The notes beneath the pieces were generated by a model. That model made no database searches, was not told the origin of the DNA, and worked only from the letters and a program-made list of their open reading frames with translations. 64,000 bases of DNA from Rufibacter sp. DG15C. Lineage in GTDB: Bacteria; Bacteroidota; Bacteroidia; Cytophagales; Hymenobacteraceae. This document shows, piece after piece, positions 7,503-63,241 of the stretch (position 1 is its first letter; each line of letters opens with the position of its first letter). A program made the translations under genes and the position numbers. The stretch is from the NCBI RefSeq assembly GCF_001577755.1, contig NZ_CP010776.1:1488001-1552000 (forward strand). Reading direction: 5' to 3'.

Positions 7503-7546
7503 TTCCGTTTTTGGACTGTTTTCTGGGAATTAGCCTAAAAACGGAA
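7503..7546. repeat. Intergenic palindrome, copy 1
   Basis: Core cgtttttggactgttttctg pairs imperfectly with a right arm ending agcctaaaaacgg. The outer ttccg/cggaa also pair. It lies 30 bp after the acyltransferase stop and has no T-tract after it. Confidence 0.9.
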
Positions 7547-7658
7547 GAAGTTTATCCACCTGCCTATACTGGTTGGTCCTTCTTTTGGGGTGGGAGATGA
7601 TAAGGCATTTAATGCAGAACTTTATCCTTAATCAGTCTCTCACGTAGACAAGCACCAT

Positions 7659-8051
7659 ATGGAAAAAACCAGACCGTCCTTCATACGCCAACGGATTAAC
7701 AGCTTCGGGTTTGCTTTAAAAGGAATCTCCTCGGCGTTCCGGTCTGAGGTGAACCTGCGCTGGCACGTGCTGTCGGCGGGATTGGTAGTGGCAGTGGGCT
7801 TTTACTTCGGGCTGACTACGGTAGAGTGGGCGCTGGTGTGCACGGCCATTGGCTTAGTTTGGATGGCCGAGTTGTTCAATACTGCCATTGAGGTGGTGGT
7901 GAACCTGGTGTCGCCGGGGCCGCACCCCATGGCGGGCAAGGCCAAGGACATTGCCGCGGGGGCCGTACTCATCGCTTCACTCACGGCTGCCGTCATTGGC
8001 CTACTAGTATTCTGGCCGTATTTGCGCCAACTCCTGGAATATACCAAGTAA
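7659..8051 (+). CDS. Diacylglycerol kinase / undecaprenol kinase family protein
   Basis: This 130-residue integral membrane protein has the DgkA layout: an amphipathic N-terminus, then three transmembrane helices. The family signature ELFNTAIE lies at residues 71-78, with KDIAAGAVL at about 96-104. These form the ATP/lipid site of the small prokaryotic DgkA family. Members phosphorylate diacylglycerol (Gram-negative DgkA) or undecaprenol; which applies here cannot be decided from sequence. It would act in the inner membrane to recycle lipid intermediates. It stands alone, after a palindrome copy, with an ATG start. Confidence 0.93.
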   Translation: MEKTRPSFIRQRINSFGFALKGISSAFRSEVNLRWHVLSAGLVVAVGFYFGLTTVEWALVCTAIGLVWMAELFNTAIEVVVNLVSPGPHPMAGKAKDIAAGAVLIASLTAAVIGLLVFWPYLRQLLEYTK

Positions 8052-8077
8052 ACATTCTTTCTGAGGCACCCGTTTAG

Positions 8078-8085
8078 TACTTTTG
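8078..8085 (+). promoter_or_regulatory. Candidate -7 box for the DinB-family gene
   Basis: TACTTTTG matches TAnnTTTG and sits 48 bp before the ATG at 8134. No clear TTTG is seen at the -33 distance, so support is weak. Confidence 0.3.
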
Positions 8086-8133
8086 CGCAAATTCTAGGGC
8101 GCGGCTCTGGAATGGTTTACCAAATTTACTTTT

Positions 8134-8619
8134 ATGACTACCAATGACGTCCTCCAGAACTTAACGCAGTACAACGTATGGGCCAACACCCGGGTACTCA
8201 AAAGTTTTGACAGAATAGAAGGCGAACTGCCAGATTACGCCGTTTTGATGTTCAGCCACGTGTTGAACGCCCAAGCCATCTGGATTGCCCGTATTACCGG
8301 CACCAAAAGCCCCGTTACCGTTTTACAAGTTCACTCTTTAGAAGAATTGCATCGTCTGGCCCAAGACACTTCCACTAAACTGGTAGAGATTTATGCCAAT
8401 GCAGATGAAGCCGAGCTGAACCGCCAAATTGAGTACACCAACACCCAAGGCAAAGCGTATTCTACCAAAGTGCATGATATCCTGACCCACGCCATCAACC
8501 ACGCCACCTACCACCGCGGACAGGTGGCCCGTGAGCTAAGATTGGCCGGACATGAGCCCATCAACTCAGACTACGTGACCTACGTGCGCATTCAGTACGG
8601 ACAGGATCTAGAACTGTAA
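8134..8619 (+). CDS. DinB/YfiT-fold metal-binding protein
   Basis: The 161-residue soluble protein matches the DinB four-helix-bundle family. The three metal-ligand histidines appear in the expected places: His42 (FSHVLN) and the pair His123 and His127 (NHATYHRGQ). Family members include bacillithiol- or mycothiol-dependent transferases and DNA-damage-inducible proteins of unknown role; nothing here points to one substrate. The length is standard. It is followed directly by a palindrome copy and then a conventional terminator shared with the convergent gene at 8735. Confidence 0.88.
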   Translation: MTTNDVLQNLTQYNVWANTRVLKSFDRIEGELPDYAVLMFSHVLNAQAIWIARITGTKSPVTVLQVHSLEELHRLAQDTSTKLVEIYANADEAELNRQIEYTNTQGKAYSTKVHDILTHAINHATYHRGQVARELRLAGHEPINSDYVTYVRIQYGQDLEL

Positions 8620-8620
8620 T

Positions 8621-8668
8621 TACATCGTTTTTGGTCTGTTTTCTAGAAAATAGCCTAAAAACGATGTA
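8621..8668. repeat. Intergenic palindrome, copy 2
   Basis: The palindrome starts one base after a stop codon. Outer flanks tacatcg/cgatgta pair perfectly, extending the stem to 7 bp beyond the T/A core. The loop is CTAG. A separate conventional terminator follows 10 bp later. Confidence 0.92.
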
Positions 8669-8678
8669 CCAGATAAAG

Positions 8679-8711
8679 AAAAAGGGAGCCCTGTAGAAAG
8701 GCTCCCTTTTT
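8679..8711. terminator. Bidirectional terminator, DinB gene / DUF4382 lipoprotein
   Basis: A 12-bp perfect stem (aaaaagggagcc / ggctcccttttt) with an A-run before and a T-run after works for both convergent genes. Confidence 0.85.
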
Positions 8712-8734
8712 TATGCGTTAGACGCTGAATTAGG

Positions 8735-9529
8735 CTAGTTCAGGTCTGTATTTGCCATGGTGGTGATTTGGTCATTGGTCACTACTACGTTAGTCACTTC
8801 TTTGTTTTTGTACGGCTCTGTGGTAGTGAACTGCACTTTATAGGTACCAGCTCTCAAACCTTTGATCAAGAAACGTCCAGCGTCATCCGCAAAACCACCC
8901 ACGGTATCATTAGCGGCAGAAATCACCAAGATACCTGGCTTGGAAGCGGCTGGCGTTACGGTTCCTTTGATTCCACCGGCCACGGCCGTAGTAATAGTTC
9001 TGATCACTGGCTTCAGGTTATACTCACCGCTGTTACCGCGGGGCACTACAGACTTGGCCGCGTCAAAGTCCAGCAACACCACGTAGGTCACGTCTTCCTC
9101 TAAGGTAGTATTCAATTGCAGTTTCAAGCCCGAGGTCTGACCGCTAGGCGTGGTCAACGGTCTTAGGGTGTTCTCGCCTTTCAGCTTTAGGGTGTTGTTG
9201 TTGCCCAGTACCAACCTGATCTGGGTGATGGCGCCGGCGGGCAGCGTGGCGCTGGCCAGCAAGGTATCGCGGCCATTGGCGAAGTCCAGCAGGTTGTACA
9301 CGCCTGGCTTGATGTTGTCCAAAGTCACCCATCCCGACTCGTCGCCGGTGGCGTTTCTGTGGATCTGTACTGATTTGATGTCTACGTTTACCTCGTCATA
9401 GTCACCGGGGGCGTCTGTGAGGCGCACTTCCATGCGGGAGGTACCGGTCACTTCTTTGTCATCCTCTGAGCAGGCAGAGAAGCCCAAGGCTCCAAACAAG
9501 AACAGGGCGGCTACAATAGATTTTTTCAT
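8735..9529 (-). CDS. DUF4382 lipoprotein with carboxypeptidase-regulatory-like domain
   Basis: The 264-residue protein has a lipoprotein signal peptide (lipobox FSAC, Cys20). A DUF4382 domain at about residues 32-175 is recognisable by MEVRLTDAPGDYDEVNVDIKSVQIH. It is followed by a carboxypeptidase-regulatory-like beta sandwich at about 185-264 (GGIKGTVTPAAS ... GTYKVQF). The function is not known. The layout suggests a cell-envelope binding or structural protein exposed outside the inner membrane. It lies downstream of the AsmA-like gene on the same strand, but a palindrome with a T-tract between them makes separate transcription likely. ATG start. Confidence 0.88.
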   Translation of the reverse strand: MKKSIVAALFLFGALGFSACSEDDKEVTGTSRMEVRLTDAPGDYDEVNVDIKSVQIHRNATGDESGWVTLDNIKPGVYNLLDFANGRDTLLASATLPAGAITQIRLVLGNNNTLKLKGENTLRPLTTPSGQTSGLKLQLNTTLEEDVTYVVLLDFDAAKSVVPRGNSGEYNLKPVIRTITTAVAGGIKGTVTPAASKPGILVISAANDTVGGFADDAGRFLIKGLRAGTYKVQFTTTEPYKNKEVTNVVVTNDQITTMANTDLN

Positions 9530-9635
9530 GGGTAAAAAATTAAGGGTGGGGGAAATTACACTGGTGTGTTACAGCACGGGACGTATACGAAAAACTGTAC
9601 CAGGGTTTACAACATTTGGGGGTTAAACAAAAAAA

Positions 9636-9679
9636 TTCCGTTTTTGGCCTGTTTCCCGGAAAACAAGCCAAAAACGGAA
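9636..9679. repeat. Intergenic palindrome, copy 3 (terminator-like on minus strand)
   Basis: The stem ttccgtttttggc / gccaaaaacggaa is near perfect. On the minus strand it is followed by a run of seven T (forward A-run 9629-9635), so this copy can act as the terminator of the AsmA-like gene. Confidence 0.92.
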
Positions 9680-9701
9680 CGATGAGCTTTGCGCTTTAGT
9701 A

Positions 9702-12700
9702 TTACTGCTGCTTGGTAGTATCTGGCGGAGTGGTAGAAGCGGCAGGCTTCTTAGGCAACTTGAACAGCTTGTTCAGTTGGTTTTTAGCCTCATCCCGTAC
9801 TTTCTGCTCTGCCTCTACGCGCTTCTTCTCTAATTCTTGCTGCGCCTTAAGCTTCATTTCTTCCTGCTTTTTGGCAAATTCAACCTTGAGGCTGTCCGTA
9901 TTGGTAGGCGCGTTGATTTTTAGTTTCTCTTTCACGCCTTCCAGTTTGCTGCTCACCACCTGCTGTACCAAATCCTTGGCTTCGGCTTTAAGGCTGCTGC
10001 TGCGCAGGGCTACGGTGGGGTTAGTGAAAGTACCGCCCACGCCTAACTGCAGGGTCACGCGCTCCAAGCTCTTAATGTTCTGCACACCCGACAAGGCCGT
10101 CAGTTTAGAAGACAAGGCGCCGCCCACCTTGCCCGAAGGAACGTCCAAGGCCACAATATAGTCCATGGTGCCGGCCAGGTTGTTGGTACCGCCCACTGTC
10201 ATCTTCATGTCACCCACGGTCAGATCAAACGGTTTTACTACCAAATTCCCGCTCAAAATCTCAGCGGCGAAGCCTTTGTTCTTCACCACAAAGTTCTGCA
10301 CGTCCTTAAGCTGCGTCACCTCGCTTATTTTAGTCAAGGCCTTGATGTTGGTCACCACGGCTTGCACTACTTCCACGGCGCCTCTACCGGTCAACGTGCT
10401 CATGACCGGCATCATGTCTCCGCCCAGCTCGCCGTTCAAGCTAAATTTGGTAGAGAACTGGCCGTCCAGGGCCTTAGCGATAGGAGCAATCTTCTGCAGG
10501 GTATTGAAGGCATTAAAGGCGCTCTTGAAATCTAGATTCTTAATGTCCAGCCCGAAGGAGAACTTTGGATGAATCAGGTCTCTGGAATCATAAGACCCGG
10601 TGGTCACAAACTGGCCGCCTAAAGTGTTAAAGCTCACATTCTCTAGTTTGGCAATCTGGTTCTTGATGGCTACCTGCCCTTTGAAATCCTGCAGCTTAAG
10701 ATTGTCATAGAGAACGTTCCCAGCCTGCGTGTTCAAAACCAAATCCAAGTCTGCCGGCACTTGCACTACGCCCTGCGCCTTGGCAGTGGTGGAAGGGGCC
10801 GCTTGGCCGGTGTGCTCGTCTACGGTCCATTCGTTTACATTGAAGGTACCTGCCCGCAGGTTGAAAGTACCGCGCAACGGCTGATTCTCTGAGAACAGGT
10901 AGCCCATATAGTTGGTCACGGTTCCGTCCATCTGCACATCGCTCTTACCCAGGAACCCGTTCAGGTTTTCCAGGCGTACCTGCTCGTTGTTGAAGGTAGC
11001 CTTGGCCGTATTGATGCGCATGCCCTGCGGCAAGTCGGTGCTCTTGTAGTTCAATTGACTGATTTGCATGGCACCGCTGGCAATCACGTTGCCGTACTGG
11101 CCAGCCTCTACATCGGTCATTTTTCCTTTGGCGGCAATGTTCCCATTCAAGCGGCCGCTCACCGTGGTGCCTTCAATCGGGAAGATCTTGGTCAGCTTGG
11201 TCAAGTCCAGAATACCGTTGATAGCCAGGTCAAACTGCGGTTTGGCTAAGTTCTTAATAGATACACGGCCTTGCAACGGCTCTTTGTCCAAGAGCATTTT
11301 GAATTGGGATACTTGAATGTCCGTGTCGGCGGCTTGGCCAGTCTTGTTAGTCACAGTAGACACCATGGTCACATTCTCCAGGGGTGCCGGGAACGAGGAG
11401 GACTTCACATAGCCGTTCACCAGGTTCAACTTGGCCACTACCATAGGCATGTGGTTCTCAAAGTACACGCCGTTAGCCGTCGCGTCCACGTCCAGTAAGC
11501 CGCGTAAAGTAGTCCCTTCCAAAGGAAATACTTTGGTCAATTCTGCTAGGTCTAGTTTGGCTTTCAGGTTACCGTTGATTTTCATCGGCTCCAGGCCGTC
11601 AATCATCACTTGGCCGTCTACCGGGTTCTTGCCCAGGTCCAAGTGCAGTTTCTTGATGTTGACCTGGGTATGGTCCACTACGCCGTCTGCATTCTTCACG
11701 CTCATATCCACGTTGATGTTGCGGGCCTCCTGTGGCAGGTCTGGGTATTTGAACCGTCCGTTGTTCACTTTCAAGTCCACCCCAAAGCCCGGCATGGTGG
11801 TCTCGTTGAAGGTTCCTTTCACGTAGCCGTTAAACGCCAGCTTGCCGTCTGTGTTAATGTCCTTGAATTTATCCGTGAACACGCCGGGCACCAGAGAGAA
11901 GAGGTTCTTGAAATCAGTTTCCAGGGCTTTGAAGGTCAAATCCAGCAGGATGTCCTCGGTGGGCATGGCTACAGAACCGGCCATTCCCAACGCAAAATCA
12001 TTAATCCGGAAGTTATTGTCTTTAAAGGTATATTTCATGTTGGCCAGGTCCATGGCCATGGTCACGTCAGCGTCCAGCTTCTTGTTTTCTATGTAGTTAA
12101 TGCCGTCATAGGTCATGGTGAAGCGTTCGGCCTGGGTCTGAGTCTTCATGTCAAAGATGTCCTTGGCCAGGTCACCGCTACCGGTGTGCTGCACGTTGTA
12201 AGCCGCCACCCCAAATGGGATGCTCAAATCCTGGTAGATGATCTGCCCATCGGTCATCTCCCAGTTGTCAATGCCCATCTTAAAGTCTGAGGTATCTGCT
12301 TGTGTAGCCTGCGCCGAGTTTGGAATAAAAATGTCCCAATTGGCCTTACCCGATTTTAAAACCAACAGCTTTAACTGCGGCTTGTCCATGGTCACTGACT
12401 TGATTACCATTTCATTGCCCGTAATCACGCTCATCAGGTCCAGGCCCAGGGCAAAGTCCGGGAGGTAGGCGAGGGTATCGCGTTGGAAGGAGTCTTTGCC
12501 CACAATACGCAGTTCTTTCACGCTCAAGGCCAGATCTGGGAATGTGCGAAACAAGGACAGCGATACGTTGTCTGTTTCGTATAGCACCCGGGCGTTAATA
12601 TTCTTGGCTATTTCTTTATCTAGCCGGTCTTTGATTTTATCTTTGAACAGAACCGGCACTAGCGCGGCAGCGGCCAGCAGCACTACAAAAAAGATGGCCA

Positions 12701-12722: not shown

Positions 12723-12767
12723 CTTGTCAAGAAGGTGAGTTCAGAATGTAAGTTTACTTATTTTAGA

Positions 12768-13835: not shown

Positions 13836-13920
13836 ATTTGTCTATTTTTACACGTTAAAGGCAAATCGTTTTTAGAGAATACAATTATTACCAATTATTA
13901 CTTGGCATCAACCAAAATTT

Positions 13921-15108: not shown

Positions 15109-15122
15109 TCTCCTTAGAGTTT

Positions 15123-15162
15123 CACAAAAAAAGGGCTGGCTTACACCAGCCCTTTTTTTGTG
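15123..15162. terminator. Bidirectional terminator, gldJ / comF
   Basis: A strong stem (cacaaaaaaagggctgg / ccagcccttttttt-gtg) with a 6-nt loop lies 14 bp after gldJ. A- and T-runs on both sides let it serve the convergent comF gene as well. Confidence 0.88.
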
Positions 15163-15195: not shown

Positions 15196-15239
15196 TATCG
15201 TTTTTGACCTCTTTTCCAGAAAACAAGTCAAAAGCGATA
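15196..15239. repeat. Intergenic palindrome, copy 4
   Basis: tatcgtttttgac pairs with gtcaaaagcgata around a CCAG loop. It sits 33 bp past the conventional gldJ terminator, so termination is not its only possible job. Confidence 0.9.
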
Positions 15240-16447: not shown

Positions 16448-16485
16448 CGTTTTTGGCCTTTTTTAGAGAAAACAGGCCAAAAACG
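16448..16485. repeat. Intergenic palindrome, copy 5
   Basis: A perfect 12-bp stem (cgtttttggcct / aggccaaaaacg) lies 28 bp after the AhpD-like gene. There is no T-tract after it. Confidence 0.93.
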
Positions 16486-17737: not shown

Positions 17738-17780
17738 AAACGGATTGAAGCAAGGGCCGTCCTTTTTTCAATCCGTTTTT
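17738..17780 (+). terminator. Terminator of the exodeoxyribonuclease operon, fused to palindrome copy 6
   Basis: An 11-bp perfect stem (aaacggattga / tcaatccgttt) with a 19-nt loop ends directly in a T-run. The T-run is also the 5' edge of the adjoining palindrome copy, so the two elements overlap. Confidence 0.75.
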
Positions 17781-17809
17781 GGGCTATTTTTTCCAAAACA
17801 ACCAAAAAC
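17774..17809. repeat. Intergenic palindrome, copy 6 (degenerate)
   Basis: cgtttttgggct and ccaaaaacc bracket a decayed centre. The copy ends one base before the start codon at 17811. Its 5' T-run doubles as the tail of the preceding terminator. Confidence 0.75.
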
Positions 17810-17810
17810 C

Positions 17811-20800
17811 ATGCAGGCTGCCGGTTCCTTACATACTGTATTACAGCAGCTTCAGGCCTTTAAACGTAAGTTCTATCTGAATTTACTGCTCAAAGGCGCC
17901 CTTCTCACCGCAGGCCTCCTGCTTTCCTTCTTCCTGCTCTTCACCCTGCTGGAGTACTTCTTTTACTTCCAGCCGGAGATACGAGCGTTCCTTCTGTTCT
18001 CATTCTTAGCCATTACTGTTTTTGCCGTGGGGCGCTGGCTCTGGACACCGCTTATGGCGTTAGCGAATTTAAAGAAGCTGTTATCAGATGAGCAGGCCGC
18101 GCAACAGGTCACCACGTACTTCCCCGAAATCCAGGACCGGCTTCTGAACTTGTTACAGCTACGGCAGCAGGCAGCAGAGAATGATCTGGTGGCCGCCAGC
18201 GTGGAGCAGCGCTCAGAAGAGTTGGCCGGGTATAAGTTTCCGGAGCGGGTGCGGCTCACGCAGAACAAGCCATACATGAAGTATGTGCTGTTGCCATCTG
18301 CCTTGGTCATCATCCTTGCCTTTATCTATCCTAGCTTCTTTGTACAAGGCAGTGAGCGCATCCTCAACTTTAAAACGCATTACACCCCTAAGGCTCCGTT
18401 TGAGTTTGAAATCCTGAACAAAAACCTACAGGCTTTTAGGGGAGAAGACTTTCAATTAAAAGTAAACATCAAGGGAGACAAAGTGCCAGAGCAAATTGCG
18501 CTGGTTCTGGAGGACCGAGAGATTCCTTTGCGCAAAGCTCCAGACAATACCTATGTCTATGATTTTAAAGCGGTAGAAGAAACTGTGGATTTCCAGCTGA
18601 CTGGGGCCGGATTCTACTCAGACCAGAAACACCTCACCGTGGTGCCCAGACCCACGCTGCGCCGCCTGAAAGCCGAATTGCGATTCCCGGGCTACTTGCG
18701 CAAGCCCCTAGAGGTTGTGGAAAACTCCGGAGACCTTACTGTGCCTGAAGGGACGCAGGTGACCTGGCGTTTAGCCGCTGAGCACGCCGATTCCTTGTGG
18801 TTAGACTTTAAAAATCCTAGCCAGCGATTGAAAGCTCTTGAAACCGATGATGAGTTTTTGGTACGTAAGACGTTTTTAGAAAGTCAGCCGTACAGCATGC
18901 ACTTGCGCAATCAGTACAGCACCAATAAGGAACAAATCAACTACCAAGTGACGGTCATCCCAGACAGAGCCCCAGAGATTACGCTGGAGCAATTCAGGGA
19001 CTCGGTGCTGTTCTCATATCTAGTAGTGGGCGGGAACATCTCAGACGACTACGGGTTCAGCAGACTGGCCTTACATTATAAAGTATCTCGGGCTGGAAAA
19101 GTTAGTGGCGGGTACCAAGCCATCTCTGTGCCGTTCAACCGAAACATTTCTACCCAGGCCTATTTCCATCAGTTCAACCTGAAGCCACTGCGATTACAGC
19201 CCGGCGACAAGGTGGAATATTTTGTGCAGGTAACGGACAACGACCAGATACCTTCGCCGAAGAGCGCCCGCACCTCTACCTTTTTGTTTACCTACCCAGA
19301 TCCCAATCAACTGCAGAAGTCCATTGACGCCACCTCGCAGAAGGTGCAGTCTCAGTTAAAGTCTTCTTTGTCCAAGGCAGAGGAGTTGAAGAAGTCTCTG
19401 GAGCAGAACGAGGAAAAGACCAAACTGAAACGGGAGCTGAGCTTCCAGGACAAGAAGGCCTTGCAGGAACTGGCAGAGAAGAAGAAAGCCTTGCAGGAAG
19501 ACCTATCCTCTTTACAGGAACTCAATGACCAACTCAACCAACAGCAAGAGCGTTTTTCGCCTGAAAACGAGAAGATAGCCGAAAAACGGGACCAGCTCAA
19601 AAAAATGATGGACGAGTTGCTTGATGAGGAAACTAAGAAACTCTACGATGAACTCGAGAAACTCTTGGAGCAACGCCAGCCCAACCCCGCCGCCATCCAA
19701 CCGTTGTTAGACAAGCTCAACCAGAAGGAAGAGAACTTGCAGAAAGAATTGGACCGCCTGCTGGAGTTATTCCAACAGTTGCAGGTAGAGCAGAAGTTGG
19801 ACCAAACCACGCAGCAGTTAGAGAAACTTGCCAAGGAGCAGGAAGAGCTTTCACAGAAGTCACTAGACAAAAACCAGTCAGAGAAAGCCCTACAAGAGGA
19901 GCAAAAGAAACTACAGAAAGAATTCAAGGATGCCCAAAAATCCTTAGACGATGCGAAGAAGCAGAATGAGAAACTAGACAATCCAGAATCCATTCCAGAC
20001 TCAGAGAAACTAGAAGAGCAGATAGAGCAGGAGCAGGAGAACGCGCAGGAGTCTTTGGAGAAAGGCCAGTACAAGAAGGCCAGCCAGTCCCAGAAGTCTG
20101 CCGCCCAGAAAATGCAGCAGATGGCCCAGCAGATGAAATCTGAGGAGATGTCCGGGGACATGGAACAGATGCAACAGAACCTGGACCACCTGCGCGACAT
20201 TTTGGAGAACCTGGTGACGCTTTCCTTCGACCAAGAGAACCTCATGAAGGCTTTTAGAAGCGTGCACCAAAGCGATCCCCGCTTCATCAACCTAGCGCAG
20301 CAACAACTCAAACTGTCAGACGATGCCAAGATCATTGAGGACAGCCTCCTTTCTTTGGCCAAGCGCGTGTTCCAGATCCAGTCGTTCGTGACCCGTGAAG
20401 TTGGGGAGATGGAAGACAACATGGACAAAAGCTCTGCCTCCATCAAGGACCGCAACCTCTCCAAGACAGGTACCCACCAGCAACTAGCCATGACCTCCAT
20501 GAACAACCTGGCCTTGATGCTAAGTGATGTACAGAAGCAGATGCAACAGGCCATGATGGCGGCCCAACAGAGCGGTCCAGGCAAGAAGAAAGGCAAGAGC
20601 GGCAAGAACCAACCTGGCGCCTTGGGTCAGATGCAGCAGCAACTCAACCAGCAGATACAGCAACTCCAGCAAAGTGGTCAGTCGGGCAAGGCCTTATCAG
20701 AATCTTTGGCCAAGTTGGCGGCTCAACAGGAACGATTGCGCAATGCCTTAAAAGACATCACACCAGCGTCCACCTCGCCGGGCGGCAAGGAGCAGGGTCA

Positions 20801-27605: not shown

Positions 27606-27643
27606 CGTTTTTAGCCTCTTTTCCAGAAATTAGGTTAAAAGCG
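27606..27643. repeat. Intergenic palindrome, copy 8
   Basis: cgtttttagcct pairs imperfectly with aggttaaaagcg around a CCAG loop. It lies 63 bp beyond a conventional terminator. Confidence 0.85.
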
Positions 27644-27718: not shown

Positions 27719-28020
27719 AGCCCGCGGCAGTTACAAACTGCCTCCAACATGGGTCCAAGTCGCAGACTTGAACCATGGCCACTGGACGGCAGATAAACCA
27801 AACCGTGCGCAGCACGCATGCCTCTGCACCGACAGGAACGGCCTTCGCCTACAGACAGGGTAGTTACTTATAAGCGCCAGCAGAACTGGAACCAAACCAG
27901 TCCTGGCCCTGAGCGCCTCTGTTGTTTCGTTGCCGCAGGCGGGGTCAAAGGCCCAGAGTACAACAGCAGTGCGAAGGGACAGGACGAGGGCCCGCGGTCG
28001 TGAGCGCTAAGAGGTAGTGA
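27719..28020. repeat. GC-rich structured repeat-like block
   Basis: Two short hairpins, ggcagttacaaactgcc and caagtcgcagacttg, stand side by side at 27725-27770. Then a long imperfect inverted repeat (arms 27900-27925 and 27960-27985, about 20 of 26 positions pairing) surrounds a 34-nt centre. The block is bounded by ccgcgg at both ends. Its base composition is unlike the AT-rich gap around it. It resembles REP-like or degraded mobile DNA rather than a gene. Confidence 0.5.
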
Positions 28021-28140
28021 TGAAACATGGAAGTGAGTGCGCACCGGAATGAAAGGATTTCTCAGGGATAATAAATAGCATGCACAAACCAGCTATAATA
28101 AGATCTTTCGACTGCGCTCGGGTTGAATAAAAACAGCATT

Positions 28141-28181
28141 CCGTTTTCTACCTCCTTTCCAGAAAACAAGCCAAAAACAGC
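28141..28181. repeat. Intergenic palindrome, copy 9 (degenerate)
   Basis: ccgttttctacctcctttcc and agaaaacaagccaaaaacag keep the recognisable arms and CCAG loop. It lies beyond the terminator of the phosphate transporter. Confidence 0.75.
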
Positions 28182-31427: not shown

Positions 31428-31465
31428 TGTTTTTAGCCTGTTTCCTAGGAAATAAGCCAAAAACG
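31428..31465. repeat. Intergenic palindrome, copy 10
   Basis: tgtttttagcctgtttcc and ggaaataagccaaaaacg flank a CTAG centre, 5 bp after the glyS stop. A conventional terminator follows 9 bp later. Confidence 0.88.
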
Positions 31466-31474: not shown

Positions 31475-31507
31475 AAAAGGCTCTCCTTCTACAGGAGAGC
31501 CTTTTTT
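31475..31507 (+). terminator. Terminator of glyS
   Basis: The stem aaaaggctctcc / ggagagcctttt has a 7-nt loop and ends in a T-run. Confidence 0.85.
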
Positions 31508-31773: not shown

Positions 31774-31811
31774 CGTTTTTGGCCCCATTTCCAGAAAACA
31801 GGCCAAAAACG
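31774..31811. repeat. Intergenic palindrome, copy 11
   Basis: A perfect 11-bp stem (cgtttttggcc / ggccaaaaacg) with CCAG near the centre lies 12 bp past the minus-strand stop of the epimerase gene. Confidence 0.92.
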
Positions 31812-32996: not shown

Positions 32997-33034
32997 CGTT
33001 TTTGGGCTGTTTTCTGGAAAATAGACCAAAAATG
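32997..33034. repeat. Intergenic palindrome, copy 12 (in a divergent gap)
   Basis: cgtttttgggctgttttctgg and aaaatagaccaaaaatg pair imperfectly. It lies between two divergent start codons (32899 and 33101), where no gene ends. Confidence 0.88.
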
Positions 33035-39110: not shown

Positions 39111-39156
39111 CCTTCGTTTTTGGCCTCATTTCTAGAATACAGGCCAAAAACGAAGG
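39111..39156. repeat. Intergenic palindrome, copy 13
   Basis: A perfect 16-bp stem (ccttcgtttttggcct / aggccaaaaacgaagg) lies between ileS and lspA. No T-tract follows, and it ends 13 bp before the lspA ATG. Confidence 0.94.
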
Positions 39157-39169: not shown

Positions 39170-39769
39170 ATGAAGTACACAAAATACTACCTGCTCACCT
39201 TACTGGTGATCGCCATTGACCAGGCCGTGAAGATGCTGGTCCACTATAACATGCAGATGGGCCTGCCCGGCGAGATTCCGGTTTTTGGCGACTGGTTTAA
39301 GCTGCACTATACACTCAACCCGGGCATGGCTTTTGGGGTGGAGATTGGCTCTGACTACGGCAAACTGATTCTTACTCTGTTCAGAATGGTGGCCATGGTG
39401 GGCATTGGGTATTTGGTGTACTATCTGGTGAAGACCAGGGCGCACAAAGGCTTGGTCTGGTGCGTAGCGGCCATCTTGGGTGGTGCCATTGGCAACCTCA
39501 TTGACAGTACCTTTTATGGTGTGTGGTTTGACAACGCCCCATATGGGGTGGTAACGCCTTGGTTGCACGGCCAGGTGATTGACATGTTCTACCTGGACAT
39601 TTGGGAAGGTATCCTGCCGCACTGGATTCCCATCATTGGCGGAACGCCCATGTCATTGTGGCCAATCTTCAACGTGGCAGACGCCGCCATTTTTGTGGGC
39701 GTGTTGATCATCGTTTTCAACCAGAATAGATTCCTGAACCAAGAGCCTACCGTACAAGCCCAAGCGTAA
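39170..39769 (+). CDS. lspA: Lipoprotein signal peptidase (SPase II)
   Basis: The 199-residue inner-membrane aspartyl peptidase removes signal peptides from prolipoproteins after lipidation. The catalytic Asp pair is visible as Asp112 (GNLIDSTFYG) and Asp171 (FNVADAAIF), with four transmembrane segments. It is longer than the E. coli enzyme because of an insert around residues 118-165 (GVVTPWLHGQVIDMFYLDIWEGILPHWIP), usual for Bacteroidetes. It follows ileS, a common pairing, and would process the many lipoproteins encoded in this window. Confidence 0.96.
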   Translation: MKYTKYYLLTLLVIAIDQAVKMLVHYNMQMGLPGEIPVFGDWFKLHYTLNPGMAFGVEIGSDYGKLILTLFRMVAMVGIGYLVYYLVKTRAHKGLVWCVAAILGGAIGNLIDSTFYGVWFDNAPYGVVTPWLHGQVIDMFYLDIWEGILPHWIPIIGGTPMSLWPIFNVADAAIFVGVLIIVFNQNRFLNQEPTVQAQA

Positions 39770-39780
39770 GGGATTGCTTA

Positions 39781-39842
39781 TAAACGAAGAAGCGTTTTTG
39801 GCCTACTTTCTGGAAAGTAGGCCAAAAACGCTTCTTCGTTTA
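39781..39842. repeat. Intergenic palindrome, copy 14 (29-bp perfect stem)
   Basis: This is the longest copy: a 29-bp perfect stem around loop CTGG between convergent lspA and the 39861 gene. The outer 11 bases (taaacgaagaa / ttcttcgttta) are unique to this copy yet fully self-complementary. It probably ends transcription from both sides. Confidence 0.97.
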
Positions 39843-39860
39843 AGATAAGTTGGTTTGGCT

Positions 39861-40469
39861 CTAGAACGAGTAGCCCATGTTTAATCCTACAGAGAAGATA
39901 GAGGTTCCTTTGTTGTAGATGTAGCCCGTGGCTCTCCACCCGAAGAACAGGCGGTTGTCACTGAAGAAGTCGTTCTCCAAGGCAATCTTCCCTCCGAAGT
40001 CTCTTTCCCGGCTGTGGATGAACTGCTCATCAGGAGTAGAACCCGGCGTTGTGTTTTCGCCTAGGGCCCCTTTGGCCAAATCTAGCTCAGAGCGTCTGCG
40101 TACGGCTGGCCCTGCGCCAATCTTAATGGTGAACTTCTCATTCTCCAACAGGTCAAAGTACATGGAGGCATCAAACATGACGAAGGCTTTTCTGGACGTA
40201 AAGATTTTCTTGCCTTGGTCATACCTGGACGAGCTTAAATACTCACCAGAGATGGCTAAGTTTAATCTGTCCGTCAGCTCGCGGCTGTACTGGTTAGAGA
40301 ACAAGGCCCCACTGTTATCTCCCTCCACAATGTAAGCAAAACCTACACCCGTCCGGAAAGCGTTCTTGTATACATGTTGCGCCGAGGCAGAGAAGGAGAG
40401 GAACGTGCATAAAACGGCTACAATGGCTGTTTTTAGGCAAAGTGAGGTTAAGTAGTGAATGTGTTTCAT
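39861..40469 (-). CDS. Small outer-membrane beta-barrel protein, unknown function
   Basis: The 202-residue protein has a signal peptide (cleavage near FSASAQ) and an alternating pattern of a small beta barrel, ending in YSF, typical of outer-membrane insertion. I see no family I can name. The longest frame starts at TTG 40475; the ATG at 40469 is used. It is a single gene, convergent with lspA and divergent from the ABC ATPase gene. Confidence 0.78.
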   Translation of the reverse strand: MKHIHYLTSLCLKTAIVAVLCTFLSFSASAQHVYKNAFRTGVGFAYIVEGDNSGALFSNQYSRELTDRLNLAISGEYLSSSRYDQGKKIFTSRKAFVMFDASMYFDLLENEKFTIKIGAGPAVRRRSELDLAKGALGENTTPGSTPDEQFIHSRERDFGGKIALENDFFSDNRLFFGWRATGYIYNKGTSIFSVGLNMGYSF

Positions 40470-42465: not shown

Positions 42466-42503
42466 CGTTTTTAGCCTACTTTTAGCAAAACAGGCCAAAA
42501 ACG
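42466..42503. repeat. Intergenic palindrome, copy 15
   Basis: cgtttttagcctacttttagc and aaaacaggccaaaaacg pair apart from two positions. It follows the ABC ATPase by 27 bp and precedes rnr. Confidence 0.9.
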
Positions 42504-44998: not shown

Positions 44999-45047
44999 AA
45001 AGCGTTTTTGGCTTCTTTTCCAGGAAAGAGGCTAAAAACGCTTTTTT
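44999..45047. repeat. Intergenic palindrome, copy 16 (acts as terminator)
   Basis: aaagcgtttttggc pairs with gctaaaaacgcttt (one wobble) and is followed by TTTTTT, 17 bp after the rnr stop. This copy has the tail of a working intrinsic terminator. Confidence 0.93.
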
Positions 45048-47436: not shown

Positions 47437-47470
47437 GCAAGAGCGGCCAATCCCCCAGGGCCGCTCTTGC
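47437..47470 (+). terminator. Terminator of the fasciclin gene, fused to palindrome copy 17
   Basis: A perfect 12-bp stem (gcaagagcggcc / ggccgctcttgc) is followed at once by TGTTTTT, which is the 5' edge of the next palindrome copy. Confidence 0.88.
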
Positions 47471-47508
47471 TGTTTTTAGGCTATTTCTGGTAAAACAGGT
47501 TAAAAACG
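47471..47508. repeat. Intergenic palindrome, copy 17
   Basis: tgtttttaggctatttctgg and taaaacaggttaaaaacg pair imperfectly. It adjoins the fasciclin terminator without a gap. Confidence 0.85.
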
Positions 47509-48430: not shown

Positions 48431-48469
48431 TTGTTTTTGGCCTGTTTTCTGGAGATTAACCCGAAAACG
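48431..48469. repeat. Intergenic palindrome, copy 18 (degenerate)
   Basis: ttgtttttggcctgttttctgg then agattaacccgaaaacg keeps the left half and loop well; the right half has decayed. Another copy lies 106 bp further on. Confidence 0.75.
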
Positions 48470-48518: not shown

Positions 48519-48574
48519 TTTCTATTTCCTTATAGTCTACGTTATCCACACCTAAACAAAGTTATTAGGAACGG

Positions 48575-48632
48575 GAAAGCCCTTCGTTTTTAGCCTGTTT
48601 TGATGGAAACAGGCTAAAAACGAAGGGCTTTC
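48575..48632. repeat. Intergenic palindrome, copy 19 (26-bp perfect stem)
   Basis: Two perfect 26-bp arms (gaaagcccttcg-core / core-cgaagggctttc) surround loop TGATGG, between the convergent DUF2807 and patatin genes. The core here has AGCC/GGCT in place of GGCC/GGCC, a compensated change. T-rich sequence follows on the plus strand. Confidence 0.97.
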
Positions 48633-48644
48633 TCTTTTGTTATT

Positions 48645-51056: not shown

Positions 51057-51157
51057 AGATGTTGGCGCGAACTTATATATTCATAAACCGCAATATTCTA
51101 GGAAAGGTTACAGCGGTCAGCACTCAACTTTGTCTATACGGCAACTCCCATAAAACA

Positions 51158-51190
51158 AACAGCCCGGCAGCATAAACTACCGGGCTGTTT
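51158..51190 (-). terminator. Terminator of the M28 peptidase gene, fused to palindrome copy 20
   Basis: A perfect 11-bp stem (aaacagcccgg / ccgggctgttt). On the minus strand it ends in TTTTGTTTT. It overlaps the start of the next palindrome copy by a few bases. Confidence 0.85.
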
Positions 51191-51223
51191 TTAGCCTGTT
51201 TTCCAGAAATCAGCCAGAAAATG
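51186..51223. repeat. Intergenic palindrome, copy 20
   Basis: tgtttttagcctgttttcc and agaaatcagccagaaaatga pair imperfectly around CCAG. It lies between the peptidase stop and its terminator. Confidence 0.85.
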
Positions 51224-52772: not shown

Positions 52773-52810
52773 CGTTTTTAACCTCTTTTCCAGAATACAG
52801 CCCAAAAACG
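52773..52810. repeat. Intergenic palindrome, copy 21 (in a divergent gap)
   Basis: cgtttttaacctcttttcc and agaatacagcccaaaaacg pair imperfectly. It lies between the divergent starts at 52610 and 52951, where no gene ends. Confidence 0.87.
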
Positions 52811-54386: not shown

Positions 54387-54424
54387 CGTTTTTAGCCTGT
54401 TTCCGTCAAAACAGACCAAAAATG
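54387..54424. repeat. Intergenic palindrome, copy 22
   Basis: cgtttttagcctgtttccgtc and aaaacagaccaaaaatg pair imperfectly 12 bp after the dehydrogenase stop. A conventional terminator follows 5 bp later. Confidence 0.87.
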
Positions 54425-54463: not shown

Positions 54464-54801
54464 GTGGCTGCTGGTTTCTAAGAATGAAAATATGCCACCA
54501 TTCCGGCCATCATAAAAGATCTTGTGGGCAAGTTGTGATAACGGTTACCAAAGAAGTCATCTTACTTGCTCATAAAGTCTTTTCAGGATGATAAACTAAG
54601 AAAGGTAATGCCGAGAAGCACAATGGGAACAGTACTCGTTTTTGGGCTGTTTCTCAGAAAGCAGGCTAAAAACGGTAAGGGCAGGAGGACATGGCTGTCA
54701 ACAATTGAACATCAGCCATCAACAATTTTACGGCATATCAGCTAGAAACTGTAATTTACCTGTGGCTTAGGCTACCAATAGGGGTAAACTTTTAGACTAC
54801 G
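54464..54801. other. Gene-free stretch upstream of the sigma-factor gene
   Basis: The stretch contains palindrome copy 23 and otherwise AT-rich sequence with no convincing frame. I see no clear TAnnTTTG box near the sigma-factor start, so its promoter may be of another type. Confidence 0.5.
54637..54674. repeat. Intergenic palindrome, copy 23
   Basis: cgtttttgggctgtttctc and agaaagcaggctaaaaacg pair imperfectly. It lies upstream of the sigma-factor gene, 261 bp after the dehydrogenase stop. Confidence 0.88.
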
Positions 54802-57572: not shown

Positions 57573-57691
57573 CTGTGGATAAACTCAGGTTTTTTAGAAG
57601 CCTGTAAAAGTATAACAAGTTATAAATAAGTCATTTACTGCATAGGTGCTCAAGTAAAACGCTTTACGCCTGTGATTTAAAATATAAGGAT

Positions 57692-58384: not shown

Positions 58385-58445
58385 TTATCCACAGTAGAAT
58401 TTGATTTCAGCCTGCATGCTAAACTAAAAGCAGGCTATTCCTAAT

Positions 58446-58495
58446 AAAGGCGTTTTTGGGCTACTTTCTAGATTATAGACCAAAAACGCCTTTTT
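58446..58495. repeat. Intergenic palindrome, copy 24 (acts as terminator)
   Basis: aaaggcgtttttgg pairs with ccaaaaacgccttt around a CTAG loop and is followed by a T-run, 62 bp after the ABC ATPase stop. Confidence 0.93.
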
Positions 58496-58526
58496 CTATA
58501 TCTATCTGTCCCCAATAAAACTCAAT

Positions 58527-59879: not shown

Positions 59880-59898
59880 AATCTCCTTGGGTGAGTAG

Positions 59899-59947
59899 AG
59901 GCGTTTTTGGGCTATTTCTTAAAAAGTAGCCCAAAAACGCCTTTTTG
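59899..59947. repeat. Intergenic palindrome, copy 25 (acts as terminator)
   Basis: A perfect 16-bp stem (aggcgtttttgggcta / tagcccaaaaacgcct) with a 12-nt loop is followed by TTTT, 19 bp after the serine hydrolase stop. Confidence 0.95.
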
Positions 59948-59981
59948 ATGTATGGCGTATACCCATGACATTTGCACTGCT

Positions 59982-61016
59982 ATGGATTCATTGACGCATG
60001 CCGCCATTGGGGCTTGTATAGGAGAACTAACGCTGGGGAAAAAGCTGGGCCGGCATGCGCTTTGGCTGGGCGCGGTGGCGCAAAACCTCCCAGACATAGA
60101 CGTGGTGGCTGCCCTGTGGCTGCCTTTCTCCAAGAACTTGTTGGTGCACCGGGGCATCACGCATTCCTTTCTCTTCGGGGTAGGCTTGGCTGTCTTGCTG
60201 GCGGCTTTGCTCAACAGATGGAAGTACACCGGTAACGCAGGTTTTGGGGCACTCTTGCTGTTTTTCTTGGGCCAGATCTTTCTGCATGATCTGCTGGATA
60301 CCTGCAATGCCTACGGTACCGGTTTGCTATTGCCCTTTCAAGAGACGCGCTTCTCCTGGAATTTGCTTTATGTGGCTGACCCATTATTTACGCTATGGCC
60401 TATTATAGCCGTCCTTGTATTAATATTCAGCCACAGAATCAATCCACAGAGCAGAAAGGCATGGGCGGTGATGGGTTTGGTGCTGCCATTGGCGTATCTG
60501 GGCTACGCCAACCAGAACAAGGCTACTGTTGAGAGAAGTGTAGAAAGGTCTTTAGTTAGTCAGAGTTTACAGACAAAACATCATTTCATGACGCCTACGG
60601 CCTTCAACAGTTGGCTGTGGTACGTGGTGGCGACCTCAGACAGCGGTTATCATATTGGGTACCGTTCGGTGTTTGAGGGAGAAGAAGCTCCCATTGCGTT
60701 TACTTTCTACCCAAGAAATGACCACTTATTAGCCGCTCATCCAGACCAACAGGAGGTACAAGACTTGAAGCAGTTTGCAGCGGGCTACCATACCGCACAG
60801 CAGAGGCAGGATACGCTGGTCTTTAACGTGCTCCGGTTTGGGCAAGTCTTGGGCTGGCGCGACAACAGTGCTACCTTCGCCTTTCATTATTACCTGCAGC
60901 CCAAGCTGGATAACACGTTAGCAGTGCAGAGAGGCCGATTTCAGGGGTGGGATGCCGTCACGGTCAGGCAACTTATCCACAGGGTTTTTAGGCCTCAAGA
61001 AGAAAAATCTCTTTAG
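59982..61016 (+). CDS. DUF457/YdjM-type membrane-bound metal-dependent hydrolase
   Basis: The 344-residue membrane protein opens with MDSLTHAAIGACIGELTLGKKLG. It has the family's HxxD-type signals (HRGITHSFLFG, FLHDLLDTCNAYGT), matching the YdjM/DUF457 'inner membrane metal-dependent hydrolase' family. The annotated activity is not well proven for any member. The longest frame starts at an ATG at 59952, just after a palindrome copy, but family members normally begin with MDSLTHA, so 59982 is used. It shares its strand with the cardiolipin synthase gene 30 bp further on. Confidence 0.85.
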   Translation: MDSLTHAAIGACIGELTLGKKLGRHALWLGAVAQNLPDIDVVAALWLPFSKNLLVHRGITHSFLFGVGLAVLLAALLNRWKYTGNAGFGALLLFFLGQIFLHDLLDTCNAYGTGLLLPFQETRFSWNLLYVADPLFTLWPIIAVLVLIFSHRINPQSRKAWAVMGLVLPLAYLGYANQNKATVERSVERSLVSQSLQTKHHFMTPTAFNSWLWYVVATSDSGYHIGYRSVFEGEEAPIAFTFYPRNDHLLAAHPDQQEVQDLKQFAAGYHTAQQRQDTLVFNVLRFGQVLGWRDNSATFAFHYYLQPKLDNTLAVQRGRFQGWDAVTVRQLIHRVFRPQEEKSL

Positions 61017-61027
61017 GGAAATAACAT

Positions 61028-61036
61028 TTATCCACA
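61028..61036. promoter_or_regulatory. Perfect TTATCCACA word (DnaA-box type) before cls
   Basis: ttatccaca is an exact match to the DnaA-box consensus in the 30-bp gap before the cardiolipin synthase start. Whether DnaA binds here is not known. Confidence 0.35.
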
Positions 61037-61046
61037 GTCCATTTCT

Positions 61047-62558
61047 ATGCTAGAGCAGCTTAGATACTCCATACAAGCCTCCCCATTTGATTTTCTACTG
61101 GACCAGGAGAACTGGATGACGCTGGGCAGGCTGGTCTATACGGTAGTGGTGGTATTGGTCTGTCTCCGCATTATTTATGACACGCGCTCTACGTCCAAGA
61201 CGCTGGCTTATCTGCTCATTGCCATCTTTGTGCCGTTTCTGGGAATCATTATTTACTTCTCCTTCGGGATCAACTACAAGAAGCGCCGGCTCTACACCAA
61301 GAAGCTGATTGAGGACGAGGTCTTCATGAGCGAGTTGGAGCAACGCGTGACCGCTTACTCAGAGCAGAGCCTACAAAGCAGCAGTCCCGAGGTGAAGGCC
61401 AACAAAGAACTCATCAAACTCTTGCTGCGCGACAGCTTTAGTCCGTTGACCGCCGGCAACAAAGTCAAAGTCCTGCTCAATGGTGAAGAGAAATTCCCCG
61501 AAGTGCTGGAAGCTCTTAAGCTAGCCAAACACCACATTCACCTTGAATACTACATCATAGACAATGACCGCATAGGCAACCAGATAAAAGACGTGCTTAT
61601 CCAAAAGGCGAAGGAGGGCGTACAGGTCAGGTTGATTTATGATGACTACGGAAGCCGTTCTATCAGGAGAAAGTATGTAGCTGAACTTGCAGAAGCTGGC
61701 GTAGAGGCCCATCCGTTCCATCGGGTGCATTTCTGGTTGCTGGCCAATAGATTGAATTACCGCAATCACCGCAAGATCATTATCATTGACGCCAAGACCG
61801 CCTTTGTGGGCGGCCTCAACATAGCAGACCGGTACATCAACAACCTCAAAAAGAAGCAAGCACTGTACTGGCGAGACACCCACCTGCGCATTGACGGGCC
61901 GGGCATTTACTACCTGCAATACCTTTTCTTTTGTGACTGGAATTTCTGCTCGGGTCAGTTCCTGCACCCAGAGGAGCATTACTTTATTGCCGAACCTGTA
62001 AAAGACGCCCATTGCCGGGTGCAGATAGCGGCCAGCGGGCCAGATTCGCCTACGTCCACTATTCTGTTCTCCTTGCTGCAGTCTATCTATCTGGCGCAGG
62101 AGGAAGTGTTGATAACTACCCCGTATTTCATTCCCGGTGAGAGCATTTTAAACGCCTTGTGCGTGGCTGCCATGGGTGGCGTGTCTGTCAAATTGCTAGT
62201 GCCGGGCATTGCAGATTCTGCCTTGGTGAACGCAGCGGCATGGTCTTACTATGATGATCTGCTCTTGGCAGGTGTGGAAATCTATCTCTACCAGAAAGGG
62301 TTCATGCATGCCAAGACCATGGTCATTGACGGCAACATGTCCATGGTGGGCACCGCCAATATGGACAACCGCAGTTTTGAACTCAACTTTGAAGTGAACG
62401 CCGTGGTCTATGACAAGGAAATCTCCCAGCAGCTACACAACGCCTTCTACCTAGACCTGAATGACGCCAAGAAGATAGACCCTGAGGAATGGCGCAACCG
62501 CTCTAGAGTCAAGCAACTTTTTGAGAAACTGGCCAGGTTGTTATCTCCGCTACTATAA
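61047..62558 (+). CDS. cls: Cardiolipin synthase (phospholipase D type)
   Basis: The 503-residue inner-membrane enzyme makes cardiolipin from two phosphatidylglycerols. Two N-terminal transmembrane segments (about 25-70) precede two HKD motifs: NHRKIIIIDAKTAFVGG and MHAKTMVIDGNMSMVGTANMDNRS. The start and length are as expected for ClsA-type enzymes. It follows the DUF457 gene by 30 bp, so the two are likely one transcript. Confidence 0.95.
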   Translation: MLEQLRYSIQASPFDFLLDQENWMTLGRLVYTVVVVLVCLRIIYDTRSTSKTLAYLLIAIFVPFLGIIIYFSFGINYKKRRLYTKKLIEDEVFMSELEQRVTAYSEQSLQSSSPEVKANKELIKLLLRDSFSPLTAGNKVKVLLNGEEKFPEVLEALKLAKHHIHLEYYIIDNDRIGNQIKDVLIQKAKEGVQVRLIYDDYGSRSIRRKYVAELAEAGVEAHPFHRVHFWLLANRLNYRNHRKIIIIDAKTAFVGGLNIADRYINNLKKKQALYWRDTHLRIDGPGIYYLQYLFFCDWNFCSGQFLHPEEHYFIAEPVKDAHCRVQIAASGPDSPTSTILFSLLQSIYLAQEEVLITTPYFIPGESILNALCVAAMGGVSVKLLVPGIADSALVNAAAWSYYDDLLLAGVEIYLYQKGFMHAKTMVIDGNMSMVGTANMDNRSFELNFEVNAVVYDKEISQQLHNAFYLDLNDAKKIDPEEWRNRSRVKQLFEKLARLLSPLL

Positions 62559-62569
62559 TTGCTAAACAT

Positions 62570-62606
62570 CGTTTTTGGCGTAATTTCTAAGAAACAGGCC
62601 AAAACG
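62570..62606. repeat. Intergenic palindrome, copy 26
   Basis: cgtttttggcgtaatttcta and agaaacaggccaaaacg pair imperfectly 12 bp after the cardiolipin synthase stop, in a convergent gap. Confidence 0.86.
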
Positions 62607-62618
62607 GTTGTGGATAAC

Positions 62619-63194
62619 TTATAGGGTGAATGCCATTTGGCAGCGTTGTCCGTCTAAGGTAGGGAGGTGTTGCTGTAGCTCTAGATGCGTCTTAATCTCT
62701 TTGAACTCCTGCTCTGAGCGGGCCTTTATTTCCTTGCGTTGCAAGGCCTCAATGAAACGGCGCGCGTCTTCAGGGGTTTCTAAGGTAAGGCCGGGCACCA
62801 GGGCGGGTTTGTCGTCTTCGCCTTTGGCCACCATGGTAAAGTAAGAGGTGTTGGTGTGCTTGACAGAACCGCTCTTCACATTCTCAGCAATTACCTTGAT
62901 GCCCACCAGCAAAGAAGTTCTTCCTACATAATTCACTGAGGCCATTAAACTCACTAGTTCACCTACCTCTACAGGCTGCAGAAAATGCACGCCGTCTACC
63001 GTCACCGTCACGCAGTAATTACCCGCGTGCTTGGCCGCGCAGGCATAGGCTACTTTATCCATCAAGGACAGCAGGATGCCGCCGTGAATCTTCCCCCCGA
63101 AGTTGGCATAGCTGGGAATCATCAGCTCGGTGAGCGTGGTGCGCGAGTGGGAGACAGGTTTGAAGAAGTCTTGGTCTGGGCTAGAAGTGGGCAT
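62619..63194 (-). CDS. Acyl-CoA thioesterase, hotdog fold
   Basis: The 191-residue protein is a YciA/BFIT-type hotdog thioesterase. The motif ANFGGKIHGGILLSLMDKVAYACAAKHAGNYCVTVTVDGVHFLQPVEVGELV-like stretch (about 31-82) carries the helix and strand typical of the family. It hydrolyses acyl-CoA esters in the cytoplasm. A charged C-terminal tail (about 150-191) is an addition over the minimal domain. The start codon touches a palindrome copy. Confidence 0.9.
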   Translation of the reverse strand: MPTSSPDQDFFKPVSHSRTTLTELMIPSYANFGGKIHGGILLSLMDKVAYACAAKHAGNYCVTVTVDGVHFLQPVEVGELVSLMASVNYVGRTSLLVGIKVIAENVKSGSVKHTNTSYFTMVAKGEDDKPALVPGLTLETPEDARRFIEALQRKEIKARSEQEFKEIKTHLELQQHLPTLDGQRCQMAFTL

Positions 63195-63241
63195 TTCGGT
63201 TTTGAGCTGTTTTCCTAAAAGTAAGGCAAAAACGGGAAATG
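63192..63241. repeat. Intergenic palindrome, copy 27 (degenerate, touches a start codon)
   Basis: catttcggttttgagctg and aaggcaaaaacgggaaatg retain the arms and paired outer ends. It fills the gap between the DUF1003 gene stop and the thioesterase start, and the first base triplet (CAT) is the thioesterase start codon. Confidence 0.78.

Follow-up and report, generated by a model that had tools for sequence, protein, structure and literature searches.

A 38-bp intergenic palindrome of Rufibacter as a putative two-fold-symmetric site for a DNA-binding protein at gene ends

A palindrome of 38 bp recurs between the genes of a 64,000-nucleotide stretch of the chromosome of Rufibacter sp. DG15C (contig NZ_CP010776.1, positions 1,488,001 to 1,552,000; hereafter the window). 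With slightly better than even confidence, we read it as a two-fold-symmetric DNA site for one putative genus-specific protein acting as a homodimer or tetramer. This reading is preferred because the element is symmetric and constrained, its halves change nearly independently of one another, its core carries no signal of RNA pairing, its species-specific spellings (dialects) change in place and its copies lie at gene ends. What is new here is the evolutionary behaviour of the palindrome; abundant intergenic palindromes are themselves already known, and the system behind this one is putative.

Every 38-mer of the window was scored against two 11-base arms (maximum 22). Twenty-eight sites reached at least 16, namely a look-alike at 19551 and the 27 palindromes listed by a first-pass annotation, which had described about 27 copies of one intergenic family. 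All but two of these sites (17774 and 51186, both 16) scored at least 17, and five first-order Markov simulations of the window produced no site at 17 or above and a single one at 16, so that the annotated family is present in full and far above chance. A single arm with at most two mismatches matched 77 times against 26.3 expected, and none of 100 shuffles gave a number as high; 45 of these matches fall in the 27 copies, two in the look-alike and 30 elsewhere, about as many as chance allows. The look-alike (19551..19588) was rejected as a 28th copy: it lies in coding DNA, owes its score of 19/22 to protein constraint and lacks the inner T-tracts, and its reading frame ERFSP[EQ]NE..A.KR is conserved in the window and in nine of ten relatives, the nine that gave an alignment.

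Over the 4.14-Mb chromosome we counted 163 copies with exact arms and none of a reversed control pattern; the refuting outcome proposed with the first-pass annotation, a core no commoner outside the window than base composition predicts, is thus not seen. A sample of 384 kb, made up of the window and sixteen stretches of 20 kb (about 9% of the genome), held 153 copies at 17/22 or more, which scales to about 1,650 genome-wide; scaling from the 143 intergenic copies of the sample gives 1,543. The genome total is about 1,500-1,650 copies. Their spacing in the window (mean 2,352 bp, median 1,778) has a coefficient of variation of 0.80, close to the 0.77 of random gene gaps, and the copies are therefore not regularly spaced.

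The site has the consensus CGTTTTTGGCCTGTTTTCTGGAAAACAGGCCAAAAACG, with arms CGTTTTTGGCCTG...CAGGCCAAAAACG paired to their ends and a loop of CTGG, CCAG or CTAG, as originally annotated (33, 30 and 16 of 142 copies, respectively). Among 143 copies from this genome, T4 and its partner are fixed in every one, T3, T5-T7, T12, T15 and T16 are nearly fixed, and half-site positions 8-11, 13, 14 and 17-19 vary. The dyad is a pyrimidine-purine step in 110 of 142 copies; A/T is found about 3-6 and 12-17 bp from it (tracts at about 4.5 and 14.5), with G/C at 8-12 bp. A gyrase-like extended A/T periodicity of 10 bp was considered and rejected, since no more than slight rises appear around 21 and 31 bp from the dyad. 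Length is fixed: a general anchor pattern of 38 bp has 376, 55, 814, 443, 187, 245 and 717 exact matches in seven genomes of the genus, and the same pattern at 40 bp has 0-2 matches per genome in 16 genomes of the genus. The foot of the element is CGTT/AACG, and a fixed tetranucleotide was not found in 20 flanking columns.

Placement relative to genes was assessed with a home-made hexamer caller, not a standard annotator. Among gaps of at least 50 bp, occupancy is 74 of 138 for tandem gaps, 32 of 43 for convergent and 15 of 43 for divergent ones, and 111 of the 121 occupied gaps contain one copy only. Within tandem gaps, 61 of 78 copies are closer to the upstream stop than to the next start, and 54% of tandem copies lie within 30 bp of the stop, compared with 24% when copies are placed at random in these gaps. 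Genes are strongly but not completely avoided. The earlier statement that copies never occur inside a gene stands for the 27 window copies (17774 touches a start codon, as was also said) and does not extend to the 384-kb sample, where nine of 153 copies lie inside gene calls, 19551 among them, several with good scores. Coding DNA (51,459 bases) contains one site above 20 bits, which is that look-alike.

Copies are also conserved in place. The window shares large syntenic blocks with the sister species G013 (74-87% DNA identity, 83.3% in the longest), and each of the 27 intergenic copies is matched by a G013 copy in the corresponding gap; the pairing is uncertain for one gap (34), where G013 offers two candidates. 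Across the 27 ortholog pairs, positions 4-6 and 33-35 are identical in 27 of 27, the inner positions 13, 17, 19, 22, 25 and 26 in 52-59% (ungapped), and the flanks in 57-59% over the adjacent 5 bp and 33-62% farther out (ungapped, and hence understated). The T-tracts are therefore under constraint, and several inner positions are near neutral. When ten relatives are pooled, a gap that holds a copy in the window also holds one in 117 cases and lacks one in 17, and a gap without a copy in the window holds one in 12 cases and lacks one in 68 (counts that are not independent); taken singly, eight of the ten relatives are significant at p < 0.01, and G007 (p 0.14) and G001 (p 0.25) are not. The view of an old, spreading element, with copies ranging from perfect to badly decayed, is not upheld, given the 27 same-gap counterparts; moreover, no pair of copies in the sample from this genome shares more than 25 of 40 flank bases, and near-identical copies are not above the number given by re-paired half-sites.

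The repeat appears to be confined to one genus, Rufibacter. When 390 genomes of the order were searched with the anchor pattern, seven genomes of the genus were positive and two of the 383 others had one match each, as did two of 383 with the reversed control. Of 59 genomes, 10 contain exact-arm copies (1 to 162 per genome), every one of them a member of the genus, and a covariance model, with at most 150 copies scored per genome, found at least 73 copies in each of 16 genomes of the genus, the lowest being G015 (73) and G008 (76). Loci of 12 kb gave no exact anchor match in Pontibacter (341 kb), Adhaeribacter (63 kb), Botryobacter (13 kb) or genera outside the family (375 kb), and eleven Rufibacter/Sabulibacter loci (137 kb) gave 28. 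The viral collection held no exact-arm match, on which ground carriage by phages was rejected.

Several species have their own spelling of the site. G000 and G013 share CGTTTTTGGCCTGTTTTC, G012 favours CGTTTTCGGgCTCATTTC and G005 CGTTTAGgGGCTgTTTTT; the spelling is less strict in G006, G009 and others. In the comparison of G000 with G012, orthologous copies (n=15) differ at 0.503 of the dialect positions and non-orthologous ones at 0.487, compared with 0.348 and 0.374 within species. Orthologs being no closer than non-orthologs, copies have been rewritten in place in some lineages. Orthologs are closer between G000 and G013 (n=22; 0.252 against 0.344), and locus memory is kept between G010 and G008 (n=9; 0.460 against 0.639). 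In G005 the half-sites are new/new in 28 copies, mixed in 23 and old/old in nine, close to the 26, 27 and 7 expected if the halves were independent. G000 contains 37 pairs of copies with at most two differences, and re-pairing its intact half-sites gives 32.6 (maximum 63); the corresponding numbers are 69 against 33.8 in G005 and 87 against 55.4 in G012, above the mean and inside the null maxima of 81 and 92. As a separate observation, palindromes of the form CGAATCGGG.CTGTTTT...AAAACAG.CCCGATTCG occur at L118 (476) and L119 (490), with CGAAT replacing CGTTT, and are perhaps a further dialect.

Pairing within the core of the 143 copies equals the expectation from column composition (0.434 against 0.440 at position 13, 0.517 against 0.526 at position 14 and 0.608 against 0.637 at position 17). 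In other genomes the core pairs weakly above expectation at positions 6-9 (z up to 4.4), shows no excess at positions 14-16 and a negative one at the centre. On the sense strand of 294 tandem copies from 11 genomes, G-U combinations number 392 and A-C combinations 374 (p 0.54). RNA pairing would favour G-U; since the halves are nearly independent and G-U is not above A-C, such pairing is not what the core keeps. Both halves are under the same constraint and change near-independently, as is characteristic of the site of a homodimer. Among the three functions offered by the first-pass annotation (a mobile repeat, an RNA hairpin or a nucleoid-protein site), a protein site fits best.

The 27 copies of the window are as follows, with no strand assigned:

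7506..7543, copy scoring 19/22 in a tandem gap, stop 32 bp before
8626..8663, copy scoring 19/22 in a convergent gap, followed by a terminator-like hairpin at 8679-8711
9639..9676, copy scoring 21/22, 25 bp past the stop of a minus-strand gene
15199..15236, copy scoring 18/22, convergent, with a separate terminator-like hairpin at 15123-15162
16448..16485, copy scoring 22/22 with exact arms, stop 28 bp before
17774..17811, weak copy scoring 16/22, touching the next gene's start codon
26942..26979, copy scoring 17/22, a small gene lying downstream
27606..27643, copy scoring 18/22 in a convergent gap
28142..28179, copy scoring 17/22, sharing its gap with 27606
31428..31465, copy scoring 19/22, stop 5 bp before, followed by a hairpin at 31475-31505
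31774..31811, copy with exact arms, 11 bp past the stop of a minus-strand gene
32997..33034, copy scoring 19/22 in a divergent gap
39115..39152, copy with exact arms behind ileS, inverted flank CCTT/AAGG
39793..39830, copy with exact arms and 12-nt inverted flanks, the whole perfect inverted repeat being 39781-39842
42466..42503, copy scoring 21/22, stop 27 bp before
45003..45040, copy scoring 20/22, flanks AAAG/CTTTTTT forming a terminator stem, most relatives having similar ones
47471..47508, copy scoring 17/22, adjoining a hairpin at 47437-47470
48432..48469, copy scoring 18/22, stop 5 bp before
48585..48622, copy scoring 20/22, inverted flanks extended to 48570-48637
51186..51223, weak copy scoring 16/22, left arm overlapped by a hairpin at 51157-51190
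52773..52810, copy scoring 19/22 in a divergent gap
54387..54424, copy scoring 19/22, stop 11 bp before
54637..54674, copy scoring 20/22, sharing its gap with 54387
58451..58488, copy scoring 20/22, flanks AAAGG/CCTTTTT (terminator stem)
59902..59939, copy scoring 20/22, flanks AGG/CCTTTTT (terminator stem)
62570..62607, copy scoring 19/22, convergent, both stops 11 bp away
63197..63234, copy scoring 17/22, 10 bp past the stop of a minus-strand gene

About 320 bp of non-coding-looking DNA (27726-28047) lies between two copies that share a gap and matches, inverted and at 75%, a place about 28 kb away in the G013 region, pointing to a second, longer repeat family.

If the palindrome is a protein site, the protein would read each half-site separately and would probably bend the DNA, as suggested by the A/T tracts, the G/C between them and the flexible step at the dyad. 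Along the chromosome it may act as an architectural or boundary factor that marks the ends of genes, and the spelling would then drift with its specificity from species to species. A side role, partly shown, would come from the site sitting inside the stem of an intrinsic terminator in about a fifth of tandem-gap copies. A more elaborate scheme, which we propose tentatively as possible, if less likely than not, is a genus-specific gene-boundary system in which a dimeric protein would clamp or bend the DNA at about 1,500 gene ends of each chromosome and would insulate transcription units or organise the nucleoid, with shifts in specificity between species rewriting most sites half by half and a fifth of them fused with terminators.

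Several observations weigh against a protein site. No binder was found. The single generic candidate considered, the HU/IHF family (PF00216), occurs in 44 of 44 genomes, within the genus as well as beyond it, and has no genus-specific paralogue, and an extra HU/IHF paralogue as the binder was accordingly rejected. At about 24.5 bits per half, the information is far above what is needed to locate some 1,600 places and unusual for the site of one protein. Sixteen of 131 classified copies are divergent and not at gene ends. Weak excess pairing exists at positions 6-9 in G006 and G012 (z 2.0-4.4 in six of eight position-genome cells) and at positions 6, 7, 9 and 12 in G000 (z 2.4-2.9), and among 176 copies within 60 bp of a stop G-U leans up slightly (226 against 194, p 0.13). 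Finally, the 37 near-identical pairs of G000 exceed an independent-column null (9.6, maximum 23), so that a trace of descent or of site strength is still present.

The same excess would suit a repetitive extragenic palindromic (REP)-like non-autonomous element, disseminated by a RAYT or another transposase and afterwards fixed and decaying, an origin that we consider unlikely while taking it seriously. Abundance, intergenic 3' placement and high information also fit REPs, but there are no whole-copy master families beyond re-paired half-sites and the T-tracts are undecayed between sister species. The first-pass annotation had noted the lack of a RAYT in the window, and indeed the whole genome of this strain, whose dialect is among the tightest, has no match to Y1_Tnp (PF01797). 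Such matches occur in 15 of 16 genomes of the genus, and about 24 of 30 fetched Y1 proteins resemble RAYT subclass 2.6 in their NH[LIV]H / FWQ / YIHxNP motifs, a subclass that in Bacteroidetes is reported to adjoin atypical repeats without GTAG (PMC6006769). In the relatives, copies stand on both sides within 600 bp at 11 of 30 Y1 loci and about 34 of 169 ordinary genes (p 0.058), a borderline lean towards a REP origin, and the comparison is flat within 400 bp (6 of 30 and about 27 of 169, p 0.60). The densest of the 30 loci, L027 (G001, R. ruber-type), has seven copies at a loose threshold in 3.2 kb around its Y1 gene (350-2336) and would also agree with such an origin. Class 1.2-type transposase genes, on the other hand, have short inverted repeats of their own, located in L009 and L011 between gene and palindrome. 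In two species, IS200-like class 1.2-type genes have flanks that share repeats of 22 bases (L009 1347-1368 and 2028-2049, L011 1902-1923), possibly the terminal repeats of these genes. A RAYT as driver is disfavoured, given its absence from the strain's own genome and a flanking test that is flat at 400 bp and borderline at 600 bp. Target duplication by a mobile element was rejected: the 143 copies have 0 direct 5-mers at their ends against 0.25 expected.

We find it harder still to believe that the palindrome as a whole is an RNA element, that is, a hairpin of 3' untranslated regions serving mRNA stability or the bidirectional termination of transcription. Copies do stand behind stops and the consensus RNA folds at -24.0 kcal/mol, but real 38-mers have a median of just -10.8 kcal/mol (range -26.3 to 0), the core shows no selection for pairing, the T-tracts lie inside the stem and not after it, and more than a third of the divergent gaps counted above are occupied. 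Separate terminators are also equally common at 3' ends with the element (47 of 152) and without it (23 of 86). The evidence in favour comes from the flanks. In the 143 copies the first 8 bases outside the core pair more than expected, and flanking 5-mers are inverted in 19 cases against 0.64 expected. At least three flank bases are paired in 64 of the 294 tandem copies, and TTTT follows within 15 nt downstream in 43-47% of these compared with 6-12% of the other 230. In several species, flank and stem have changed together behind ileS (39115) and at 45003. In the convergent gap after 39769 (39769-39861), nine of ten relatives carry an ordinary bidirectional terminator; in the window and G013 this terminator is gone and the element with long paired flanks (39793) stands there in its stead. 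The gap after 15108 contains terminator and element in the window, G013 and G012, and the terminator alone in G006, G009 and G005. About a fifth of the copies at most, those with copy-specific inverted flanks and often a downstream T-run, probably double as terminators. The idea of a functional RNA hairpin, as first annotated, finds support in the flanks of this fifth and is disfavoured for the core.

That the palindrome is an uptake sequence of natural transformation, its uniformity maintained by a bias in DNA uptake, is very improbable: dialects of uptake sequences exist in Neisseriaceae and Pasteurellaceae, and the thousands of sites, species dialects at conserved positions and T-tracts one helical turn apart are reminiscent of them, but half-sites outside the palindromes are at chance level in the window (the 30 of 77 found elsewhere, with 26.3 expected in all) and coding DNA offers nothing above 20 bits beyond the look-alike. 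Hardly any credence can be given to a mutational or gene-conversion process that keeps the copies alike without function, which would yield dialects with no binder, as the G005 halves switch independently, flanks are not converted with the core and only some positions are fixed.

With respect to known systems, the palindrome resembles DNA uptake sequences in having species dialects at very many sites and differs from them in showing no excess of lone half-sites and none in genes. Bent sites of the IHF/HU type are alike in size (about 36 bp) and in their A/T tracts at the flanks and near two kinks; in contrast, the palindrome has strict dyad symmetry and is restricted to a genus, and HU is found far outside it. 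REPs and bacterial interspersed mosaic elements (BIMEs) with RAYTs (GTAG super-family) are likewise short, abundant intergenic palindromes, mostly behind genes, and REPs are known binding sites of host proteins (PMC2817692). Unlike them, the present element has no GTAG/GTGG foot, is fully two-fold symmetric, usually stands one per gap instead of in BIME clusters, has no Y1_Tnp in its genome and has halves whose evolution is nearly independent. CGTC-tagged REPs are palindromic repeats that lack a transposase of their own and have been reported from several phyla, Bacteroidetes included; their unpaired CGTC tag and CCA tail are missing here (PMC3733652). The atypical repeats of RAYT subclass 2.6 (PMC6006769) share with ours the lack of GTAG, the phylum and the presence of such-looking proteins in relatives within the genus; they differ, in a comparison by description and not by sequence, in that the association with these genes is not significant here and the strain's own genome is without them. 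HIP1 of cyanobacteria is also a lineage-wide over-represented palindrome of uncertain role, but it is 8 bp long and tied to methyltransferases (PMC4390886), whereas ours has 38 bp and is nearly absent from genes.

The annotators knew of no named family with this core, in agreement with which no Rfam family reached its gathering score within the window. The perfect consensus 38-mer had no match in the genome collection, which may leave out this genome and those very near to it. Literature on repeats in Rufibacter, Hymenobacteraceae and Bacteroidetes yielded, among the matches listed, no description of the palindrome, supplements lying outside that search, so that an earlier description there is possible. 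The arm string led in full-text literature, among the matches listed, to unrelated primers or other organisms by title, and the available portion of the main text of the RepRanger paper (PMC12306157) does not name Rufibacter.

The usual practice is to class abundant intergenic palindromes as REPs and to take them for mobile relics or RNA hairpins. Three cheap tests, namely the independence of the halves, G-U against A-C on the sense strand and the distance of orthologs against that of paralogs, point in this case to a site at the DNA level, and the same tests are applicable to other REP-like families. If this is true, Rufibacter would provide a natural series of related genomes with some thousand sites changing their spelling together, in which the coevolution of a DNA-binding protein with its whole repertoire of sites, as well as the part of gene-end sites in chromosome layout, would become directly testable.

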